Source: Candidatus Saccharimonadota bacterium
GTDB lineage: Bacteria > Patescibacteriota > Saccharimonadia > Saccharimonadales > Saccharimonadaceae
Assembly (NCBI GenBank): GCA_024697865.1
Contig: JAILSC010000009.1
Coordinates: 1-64,000 of the forward strand
Length of the DNA: 64,000 bases
Direction of reading: 5' to 3'
The notes below the pieces were generated by a model that was not told where the DNA came from, did not search any database, and saw only the letters and a program-made list of their open reading frames with translations. Shown here one piece after another: positions 18,880 through 42,964 of the stretch. A program made the translations under genes and the position numbers. The number at the start of each line of letters is the position of its first letter. Within the stretch, counting starts at the first letter, position 1.

Positions 18880-18954
18880 TGGGATGTCGCCAAGTGGTAA
18901 GGCAGCGGGTTTTGGTCCCGTCATTCGCAGGTTCGAATCCTGCCATCCCAGCCA
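18880..18954 (+). tRNA. tRNA-Gln(TTG), CCA encoded
   Basis: Acceptor TGGGATG/CATCCCA, anticodon loop TTTTGGT with TTG anticodon, T-arm GCAGGTTCGAATCCTGC, 3' GCCA. Confidence 0.93.
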
Positions 18955-18992: not shown

Positions 18993-19032
18993 GGATTCGG
19001 ACCTAACGGTGCGAATCCTGCCATCCCAGCCA
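18993..19032 (+). repeat. Duplicated tRNA-Gln 3' tail with hairpin
   Basis: GGATTCGGACC-TAAC-GGTGCGAATCC then TGCCATCCCAGCCA. The 21 nt CGAATCCTGCCATCCCAGCCA at 19012-19032 is identical to 18934-18954. Confidence 0.9.
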
Positions 19033-34892: not shown

Positions 34893-34934
34893 TGATATGC
34901 CCGGTAGGATTGGGATCCCGCCCGACTCTACCTA
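34893..34934 (-). repeat. Degenerate duplicated tRNA-Arg 3' tail
   Basis: TATGCCCGGTAGGATT (plus strand) at 34896-34911 is identical to 34978-34993; minus strand GGAT-CCCA-ATCC hairpin then TACCGGGCATATCA. Confidence 0.85.
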
Positions 34935-34974: not shown

Positions 34975-35051
34975 TGGTATGCCCGGTAGGATTCGAACCT
35001 GCGACCTTTGGCTCCGCAAGCCAACGCTCTATCCAGCTGAGCTACGGGCAC
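34975..35051 (-). tRNA. tRNA-Arg(GCG), CCA encoded
   Basis: GTGCCCG/CGGGCAT acceptor, D-arm GCTCAGCTGGATAGAGC, anticodon loop TTGCGGA, GGTTCGAATCC, ACCA. Confidence 0.88.
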
Positions 35052-35197: not shown

Positions 35198-35758
35198 ATG
35201 CCTTGGGTGGGAATAAAAACTAAAAATAGGCGATACCAAAAGACCGAGATCGCTATTTTAGAAGTCTTAATGAGATCAAAAGAGTTGCCTTCGGCTAGAG
35301 TACTAGTAAGGCAGGCTAAAATTTCACGATCAACACTATATCGCCATCATAAAACTATCCCAGGAATAATACCGGATTACGAGAGAGAAATTTTAATTAA
35401 ATATACAGAGGTAATCCAAAAATTAACTCGACGAAAAAATATCCAGGTCCGAACAATTTGTCTTCGGACCTTAATTTTTATCATGATGAACCGGCGAACT
35501 TTTAAAATTTTATTAAAATACGATAGCGGAGTGGTGATTGAAAAAATGATTCTGAAATTAAGGCATAAACTGAAAAGTGCCTGTTATCTACCAAATAATC
35601 CAGAAAGAATGCTACGAATCTATGCCAAAGAAGTAGCAGGAGTAATAGAAGAATGGGGTAAAAATGGGTTTAAAGAAGGGGAGTTAGAGATGGTGCTGGG
35701 TAAAGTTATGTACTTGACTGAGAGTATGCGACAAAGATTAGGGCCTCTTAACCGTTAA
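35198..35758 (+). CDS. TetR-like DNA-binding protein
   Basis: ILEVLMRSKELPSARVLVRQAKISRSTLYRHHKTI helix-turn-helix. Confidence 0.65.
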   Translation: MPWVGIKTKNRRYQKTEIAILEVLMRSKELPSARVLVRQAKISRSTLYRHHKTIPGIIPDYEREILIKYTEVIQKLTRRKNIQVRTICLRTLIFIMMNRRTFKILLKYDSGVVIEKMILKLRHKLKSACYLPNNPERMLRIYAKEVAGVIEEWGKNGFKEGELEMVLGKVMYLTESMRQRLGPLNR

Positions 35759-35789
35759 TTCTTAGAGGATTTATGGTATAATAAAGAGT

Positions 35790-35880
35790 GGAAGCGTGGC
35801 CGAGTGGTTGAAGGCGCACGACTCGAAATCGTGTGGGCGGGTTAACCGTCTCGGAGGTTCGAATCCTCTCGCTTCCGCCA
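35790..35880 (+). tRNA. tRNA-Ser(CGA), CCA encoded
   Basis: GGAAGCG/CGCTTCC acceptor, anticodon stem CACGA-CTCGAAA-TCGTG, long variable arm, GCCA. Confidence 0.93.
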
Positions 35881-35905
35881 TTGGATCGAGCAAGATACTG
35901 TGTTC

Positions 35906-35946
35906 GGATTCGGACCTTCGGTGCGAATCCTCTCGCTTCCGCCATT
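35906..35946 (+). repeat. Duplicated tRNA-Ser(CGA) 3' tail with hairpin
   Basis: GGATTCGGACC-TTC-GGTGCGAATCC then TCTCGCTTCCGCCATT; 23 nt at 35924-35946 identical to 35860-35882. Confidence 0.9.
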
Positions 35947-35992
35947 AGGAGTGAATTTTAACAAAAAACTAGACCCTGTAGAATTAAGCTGG

Positions 35993-36020
35993 GGCCCCGC
36001 TAAATTGGCGGGGCCTTTTT
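35993..36020 (+). terminator. Rho-independent terminator downstream of tRNA-Ser(CGA) and its tail
   Basis: GGCCCCGC-N7-GCGGGGCC-TTTTT. Confidence 0.85.
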
Positions 36021-36054
36021 GTGATATAATAGAGACAACTAGAAGAGGTCCAAA

Positions 36055-37068
36055 ATGACTGAGGATAACCCAGAGAAACGAATTGAAATTTATAAGGGGC
36101 TGGCGGGTGAGGTGATTTTTGATGTAGATACGGAAGGGGAAACAATCTGGGCGACACAGGCCCAGATGGCGCAAGTTTTTGATACGGGCCTACCAACTAT
36201 CAATTATCATTTGAAGAGTATTTTTGAAAGTGGCGAACTGGACGAATCACGAACTATTCGAAAAAATCGAATAGTTCGAACAGAAGGGAAACGACAAGTA
36301 CAGCGTGAAGTGAAAGTCTATAATCTAGACGCAATCATTTCGGTGGGTTATCGAGTAAATTCAAAAAAAGCAACGCAGTTTAGGATCTGGGCCACAAATG
36401 TATTGAAGCGATTCGTGACGGACGGGGTGGCGATCAACGAACGACGACTTGAAGATTTACGAGCAAAAGAGGATGTTAAACGACTGCGTGACGTAGAAAA
36501 AATGATGGGGTTGGTGAGAAGACTGACCGCTACAAAGCTTTTAGATGCCGGGGAAGCAAACGGGGTGCTAGAAGTAATCTCACGTTATGCCGGGAGTTTT
36601 AAAACTTTAGAAGAATACGACGAAGGGCATATTGATCTAAAATTTTTAAACAAAAAACGTAGACAAAAAGAATTAACGGTAGAAATGTGCAATTCGGCAG
36701 TGGAGCAACTACGCAAAAACGTAAAAGGCGGAGATTTGTTTGGTAAAATGCGCGGAAAGATGTTTGAAGGAAGCCTGTCGACTATTTTCCAGAGTTTTGA
36801 TGGGAAAGAACTGTACCCGAGCGTGCCGGAAAAAGCGGCAAACTTATTGTATTTCGTAATTAAAGATCACCCGTTTTACGATGGCAACAAACGAATTGGG
36901 GCGCTATTATTTATTTTATTCTTAACATTAAATGATTGCCATTTGACGGCAAATGGCGAAACTAAAATATCCGATCGGGCGCTGACGGCAATTGCACTTT
37001 TGATTGCCGAATCAGAACCAAAAGAGAAAGAACTAATCGTCAGTCTGGTCTGTAAGTTGCTAGAATAG
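36055..37068 (+). CDS. RhuM-like N-terminal domain fused to Fic/DOC domain
   Basis: VYNLDAIISVGYRVNSKKATQFRIWATNVLKRFV (RhuM) and HPFYDGNKRIGALLFILFL (Fic/DOC HPFxDGNKR). Confidence 0.88.
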   Translation: MTEDNPEKRIEIYKGLAGEVIFDVDTEGETIWATQAQMAQVFDTGLPTINYHLKSIFESGELDESRTIRKNRIVRTEGKRQVQREVKVYNLDAIISVGYRVNSKKATQFRIWATNVLKRFVTDGVAINERRLEDLRAKEDVKRLRDVEKMMGLVRRLTATKLLDAGEANGVLEVISRYAGSFKTLEEYDEGHIDLKFLNKKRRQKELTVEMCNSAVEQLRKNVKGGDLFGKMRGKMFEGSLSTIFQSFDGKELYPSVPEKAANLLYFVIKDHPFYDGNKRIGALLFILFLTLNDCHLTANGETKISDRALTAIALLIAESEPKEKELIVSLVCKLLE

Positions 37069-42592: not shown

Positions 42593-42702
42593 TTTTTTAA
42601 TTACTCTTATGATTATTAGTCCTAATAAAGTAGCCTAGCGGGTGGCTGGCTACTTAGTTGATTATATTATATCATATTATTTAGAATCGCGAGAAGGAAA
42701 AT

Positions 42703-42729
42703 GGCGGAAAGGACAGGATATTAATCCTA
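42703..42729 (-). repeat. Duplicated tRNA-Ser(GGA) 3' tail with hairpin
   Basis: TGGCGGAAAGGACAGGAT at 42703-42720 identical to 42875-42892; AGGAT-N4-ATCCT hairpin at 42716-42729. Confidence 0.9.
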
Positions 42730-42874: not shown

Positions 42875-42964
42875 TGGCGGAAAGGACAGGATTCGAACCT
42901 GCGAAGGGCGTGAACCCTTACACGCTTTCCAAGCGTGCGCCTTAAACCACTCGGCCACCTTTCC
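42875..42964 (-). tRNA. tRNA-Ser(GGA), CCA encoded
   Basis: GGAAAGG/CCTTTCC acceptor, anticodon stem CACGC-TTGGAAA-GCGTG, long variable arm, GCCA. Confidence 0.93.

Follow-up and report, generated by a model that had tools for sequence, protein, structure and literature searches.

Copies of tRNA 3' ends set behind hairpins follow many tRNA genes of Candidatus Nanosyncoccus and share the architecture of Escherichia coli rtT

We analysed a window of 64,000 nucleotides (positions 1 to 64,000 of contig JAILSC010000009.1, assembly GCA_024697865.1) in which the gene for tRNA-Ser(CGA) is followed by a tail consisting of a small hairpin and a second copy of the tRNA's own 3' end. The host genome, of 709,535 bp with 46 tRNAs, belongs to the genus Candidatus Nanosyncoccus, one of the very small Saccharibacteria of the gut. 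To our knowledge, such an arrangement of tRNA, hairpin and end copy was known earlier only from one E. coli tRNA operon, and the repeat found there, rtT, was treated as a peculiarity of that operon; in the openly readable literature we found no paper on such tails in Saccharibacteria. The tRNA-Ser gene encodes its CCA and was called by ARAGORN and Rfam with an end at 35880 or 35877. The window holds exactly two copies of the 23-mer CGAATCCTCTCGCTTCCGCCATT (35860-35882 and 35924-35946); their offset is 64, as the original prediction, made from the sequence alone, had claimed. None of 100 dinucleotide-preserving shuffles had so much as a near match (mean 0 with 3 mismatches allowed), and these shuffles together with swapped-isotype controls (below) rule out a chance repeat. 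The copy proper is 21 nt long and terminates in CCA; the final TT of the 23-mer is probably incidental, because most copies in the genus stop at CCA.

The hairpin (35906-35930) is formed by the arms GGATTCGGACC and GGTGCGAATCC around the loop TTC, and its G.G mismatch is present in the RNAfold fold. Apart from one changed base, the left arm matches the T-arm GGTTCGAATCC in reverse complement, in agreement with what had been proposed. The proposed likeness to the tail of tRNA-Gln also holds: both arms recur there, with the mismatch. Far from being absent at other tRNA tails, the same core lies at several other tRNAs of the genome. A terminator had been placed downstream of the tail, and a terminator-like hairpin is indeed found there, with coordinates that differ by two or three bases (35991-36017, not 35993-36020). 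A terminator between tRNA-Ser(CGA) and its tail was looked for and none was found, so that co-transcription of the two is plausible from the sequence. In the minimum-energy fold of the precursor, the 5' acceptor strand of the tRNA is paired with the distal copy. Two minus-strand open frames run antisense to the tRNA and tail (35748-35945 and 35842-36174); their translations are GGSERIRT-like, and as gene calls they are probably spurious.

Each of the four tRNAs in the window is followed by a copy of its 3' end (Table 1); the tails of tRNA-Arg(GCG) and tRNA-Ser(GGA) had been overlooked in the original prediction.

Table 1. Coordinates of tRNA genes, end copies and hairpins in the window
Feature	Position	Strand	Basis or remark
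tRNA-Ser(CGA) gene, CCA encoded	35790..35880	+	ARAGORN, Rfam
First copy of 3' end, tRNA positions 56-76, from T^CG	35860..35880	+	Repeat comparison
Left hairpin arm GGATTCGGACC, T-arm reverse complement with one change	35906..35916	+	Same core at other tRNAs
Right hairpin arm GGTGCGAATCC, overlaps copy start	35920..35930	+	G.G mismatch 35913/35923
Second copy of tRNA-Ser 3' end, 21 nt, up to CCA	35924..35944	+
Terminator-like hairpin downstream of tail	35991..36017	+
tRNA-Gln(TTG)	18880..18954	+	ARAGORN
tRNA-Gln 3'-end copy behind same type-A hairpin	19012..19032	+
tRNA-Arg(GCG)	34975..35051	-
tRNA-Arg 3'-end copy, 19 nt, one mismatch	34893..34911	-
tRNA-Ser(GGA)	42875..42964	-
tRNA-Ser(GGA) 3'-end copy, 18 nt, positions 59-76	42702..42719	-

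Across the host genome 16 of the 46 tRNA genes are tailed. The genus sample, drawn from mostly metagenome assemblies and over-representing Ser and Arg tRNAs adjoining valS, has tails at 100 of 356 tRNA genes, tail-selected loci being left out. A permuted control on an earlier sample of 365 genes, in which the end of a tRNA of another isotype was swapped in, gave 0 of 1552. Tails with different cores are present in two other families of the order (genomes G042 and G036); none were seen in G054, a sampled relative, and a phylum-wide draw of 53 tRNAs, mostly from other Patescibacteria families, yielded a single ambiguous case. On viral contigs the tail pattern matched 18 times, mostly by chance within coding sequence; L388 and possibly L390 and L396 look like genuine tails.

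The tails obey a common order: the tRNA with its CCA, a spacer that often holds a terminator, the reverse complement of the T-arm (sometimes of the acceptor too), a hairpin core, and an exact 3'-end copy up to CCA. An inverted T-arm copy ahead of the sense copy, suggested earlier for tRNA-Ser(CGA), is a general rule of these tails. Copies start at a few tRNA positions, which define classes derived from the same data that they describe: 56 in class A, always at T^CG; 59 (just after A58) or 58 in class B; 66 in the acceptor class; and 48-51 in class C. The first bases of the copy are CG, with a T before them in the tRNA, in 37 of 37 class A, 6 of 6 class C and 8 of 9 acceptor-class cases (51 of 52 in total). 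Class A copies accompany 30 of the 255 tRNAs with G57 and none of the 90 with A57, in a sample where isotypes are unevenly represented. The stretch before the copy ends in the core, and since the core's left arm is the copy start in reverse complement, the two close a hairpin. Cores are shared and carry tRNA-specific ends: the class A core, which varies in paired fashion (GGACC..GGTGC, AATC..GATGC), is found downstream of tRNAs in 12 genomes, each time with ends specific to the tRNA. Since many tails follow a terminator-like hairpin (33 of 47 in class B), co-transcription cannot be general. The tails of G042 and G036 have a long reverse complement, with the terminator followed by TGG and then the antisense T-arm, in the order P, x, x', TGG P', P. 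At loci of these two genomes such as L286, L287, L296 and L310, the terminators of the tRNAs form nearly perfect palindromes, which CCA...TGG closes and which run on as antisense tRNA sequence. A further sub-class (L463, L467, L421, L425) has the core directly after CCA, with neither spacer nor inverted arm.

The long class-B core, of about 120 nt, consists of GGATGAGAACC-GTA-GGTTCG, then a GAG..GAG helix, an AT hairpin and one final hairpin. Covariation in it is strong, with 98.3% of cells paired and 33 two-sided against 4 one-sided pair changes; a wider set has 96.6% of cells paired and 64 two-sided changes. Against Rfam the long core has no match at gathering. We built a 118-position covariance model of it (R1) from Nanosyncoccus only. 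R1, whose E-values are rough owing to a short calibration, matches the tyrT-tyrV spacer of E. coli over the full length (E 0.0014) and the metagenome contig L388 (E 4e-4). The Rfam model RtT (RF00391) in turn aligns over its full length and ends at CCA both in L388 (24.1 bits, E 0.016) and in the long Nanosyncoccus tail L320 (16.6 bits, E 0.62). Of 198 genomes of the order, 39 have R1 matches, and the long core follows tRNAs in many Saccharibacteria families. Among the 57 elements examined, 46 lie no more than 450 nt downstream of a same-strand tRNA, most often at +45 to +60.

The tyrT-tyrV-tpr region of E. coli contains exact 19-nt copies of the tRNA-Tyr end up to CCA, three of them in tandem after tyrV, each preceded by GGATGAGAAGCTTCGACCAAGGTTCGA, and one in the tyrT-tyrV spacer, preceded by GGGTGAGAACCTTCGACTAAGGTTCGA. 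Ahead of each copy stand an antisense T-arm and the motif GGATGAGAA...GGTTCGA, which is common to the long core, and the outer helix of the Rfam RtT structure pairs the antisense arm with the copy. Covariation work reports tandem GA in RtT (PMC8250186, PMC7657543), and the GAG..GAG of the long core is in line with this. The tail class extends beyond one operon, and the modest scores together with the shared motif and architecture suggest that its long form is homologous to rtT. One long core (L440 525-640, genome G080; R1 47.7 bits, E 8e-13) lies just upstream of 23S rRNA, with no tRNA; long cores may thus belong more generally to the leaders and trailers of stable RNAs. At L438 (579-699) the 5' part of a tRNA-Gln, to about TTCG of the T-loop, abuts a core that is followed by an intact tRNA-Gln(ctg), an arrangement that looks like insertion into the tRNA T-loop.

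The tails differ between close relatives. Tail status differs in 238 of 492 syntenic pairs of orthologous tRNAs, and at locus L251 there is one unit (31 bp plus an 11-bp duplication) more than at its orthologue L180. A further orthologue of L251, L217, with a 93% identical flank, has neither tails nor terminator, and a T-run stands right after its CCA, as at many untailed tRNAs. Units also occur in tandem arrays of identical or near-identical copies (Trp x3, Ser x3, Ser-gga x3), with x3 arrays in G010 and G108. At L326 a changed tRNA end (GGAGATG...CATCTCC) is matched exactly by the copy, and the inverted arm retains the usual Ser form. Mutations of the copies cluster at positions 71-76, CCA included, with 26 at 73-76 and 8 at 61-65. 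CCA is the least conserved part of the copies, so they are unlikely to serve as a second usable tRNA 3' end. In our reading, a tail is born when the end is duplicated exactly and then decays, and the direct repeats may homogenise each other.

Our preferred interpretation, with a probability of roughly 0.48, takes the window tail for an RtT-like tail unit of the tRNA, built as a small hairpin whose ends are copied from that tRNA, and riding in the tRNA trailer. The unit would be born when a tRNA end is duplicated, in the manner of a target-site duplication, around an inverted-arm hairpin. Copies would stay like their tRNA through youth or through recombination between direct repeats, and the unit would decay after birth; such a life history would make it mainly a small hairpin element that propagates itself or is driven by mutation. 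At tails with no intervening terminator, the window tail included, it would probably be carried in the tRNA 3' trailer. The interpretation is offered for units that have a regular grammar with fixed boundaries, shared cores with tRNA-specific ends, tandem arrays, presence or absence at orthologues, decayed copies and a link between the long core and rtT. A wider version, which we consider doubtful, is a cross-phylum family of tRNA-linked elements, with rtT the sole described case, that would spread by copying the 3' ends of target tRNAs at fixed T-arm break points via a putative sequence-specific (T^CG or post-A58) cut-and-copy machinery.

Several points weigh against the tail unit. No mobilising enzyme was identified: Y1_Tnp is absent from all genus genomes searched except G024, G010 and G025, which are both tailed, have one tyrosine recombinase each, an Xer-like one, and reverse transcriptase is dispensable for tails. 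Neither strand is favoured by the wobble pairs of the arms (71 vs 94). The difference between L180 and L251 fits gain or loss alike, the short core of the window tail is too small for a sequence link to rtT, and the long core, one copy of which stands just upstream of 23S rRNA, is structured and covaries as a functional RNA would too. The mechanism categories were also set after inspection of the data. An origin by REP/RAYT transposase was rejected, Y1_Tnp being confined to G024 among the genus genomes searched. Foreign inverted arms were considered as proof of jumping between tRNAs and set aside, the best cases being explainable by TGG and the tRNA's own arm. We likewise do not rely on wobble pairs of the long core for the strand of action, since a first automatic fold pointed to wobble on the top strand (22 GU and 4 AC) and a curated one-subtype alignment gave only 4 GU and 1 AC. 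Stable minus-strand DNA loops (GNA/GNNA) were noticed; both orientations occur.

The main rival, for which the odds are clearly lower, is a structured 3' trailer that serves the host, transcribed with the tRNA and acting, for example, as a processing signal, a regulatory RNA of the kind proposed for rtT, or a switch in which the 5' acceptor strand of the tRNA can pair with either copy. The long core covaries and keeps GAG...GAG, like the tandem GA of RtT, and it lies in sense orientation about 45-60 nt past many tRNAs and once upstream of 23S rRNA; at the window tail, the pairing of the acceptor strand with the distal copy and the lack of a preceding terminator are as a trailer would have them. 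Against a host function, tails are patchy between close species, the same tRNA bears different core types, the CCA end decays first, and a terminator-like hairpin precedes most class-B tails.

It is improbable that the tails are a pure by-product of mutation, in which foldback template switching during replication at two adjacent palindromes, the T-arm and the terminator, would produce a sense-antisense-sense copy, and later switches would keep the stems perfect. Template switching creates and repairs hairpins (PMC8794818). The tails of G042 and G036, with their order P, x, x', TGG P', P, agree with it, as do the inverted arms that always come from the local tRNA and the large excess of two-sided over one-sided changes. 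However, the same cores (GGACC..GGTGC, GGCTTCGCCAA, GCGTCCCAAGGGGC and the long core) recur at different tRNAs, in different species and in E. coli, beyond what local switching alone would give, and almost no tails occur in the sampled relatives, G054 and the other Patescibacteria families.

If the tails were scars left by integrative elements with attachment sites at the tRNA 3' end, one would expect an exact duplication of that end with a break in the T-loop, as seen here. Such an origin is very unlikely: no element or integrase lies between the repeats, the inverted arm of the unit is specific to its tRNA, a second tyrosine recombinase is missing from G010 and from G025, and tails occur on many different tRNAs. 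We give hardly any credence to an RNA-mediated, reverse-transcribed origin, despite the exact 59-76 copies up to mature CCA, the 18-nt class that ends at A58 like a retroviral primer copy, and RVT_1 being common in the genus and rare in other sampled families, since G000, G010 and G025 have many tails yet no RVT_1 match, G042 and G036 are tailed without RVT_1, and the T^CG classes are left unexplained. RVT_1 proteins of about 380-400 aa, 1-4 per genome, were found in 23 Nanosyncoccus genomes and in 1 of 24 from the other families sampled; they presumably belong to diversity-generating retroelements.

What was long an E. coli oddity thus appears to be one example of tRNA-linked elements that are widespread. 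The rtT arrangement is present on more than a quarter of the sampled Nanosyncoccus tRNA genes and follows explicit rules (break points, inverted arm, core types), which makes it a testable class. Either tRNA genes host tiny hairpin elements with ends copied from their target, or bacteria use an uncharacterised structured tRNA trailer. Rfam has no Saccharibacteria family for the long form, which is now described by a covariance model.

REP/RAYT elements and integron attC sites resemble the tails in being small hairpins in which a mismatch is conserved and the terminal loop varies. The tails differ from REP/RAYT in the lack of a Y1 transposase, in all but one of the genus genomes searched, and in having ends copied from the neighbouring tRNA. 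With attachment sites at tRNA 3' ends they have in common a direct repeat of the tRNA 3' end and the T-arm break; they differ in that their units of 40-230 bp hold a tRNA-specific inverted arm and no integrase, cargo or element remnant between the repeats. Like template-switch (quasi-palindrome) hairpins, the tails contain inverted copies of neighbouring sequence, with local reverse-complement arms and paired changes on both arms, but local templates do not explain all of the inserted sequence, and cores are common to different tRNAs, genomes and phyla. The closest likeness in architecture is to RtT (RF00391). Both have an exact tRNA 3'-end copy to CCA, of 19 nt in E. coli and 21 nt in the window, and an antisense T-arm before the copy that closes an outer helix. 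As to tandem arrays after the tRNA, the window tail is a single unit, and arrays of three occur in G010 and G108. The window tail has no covariance-model match at the gathering score (45 bits). It lacks the multi-helix core with tandem GA, having only a short type-A core; we therefore do not file it as a member of RtT. The long tails of the genus do have GAG...GAG around a covarying helix, and Nanosyncoccus goes beyond E. coli in the many different tRNAs that bear tails, in its copy classes (11, 18-19, 21-22 and 26-29 nt) and in having several short cores unrelated to one another.
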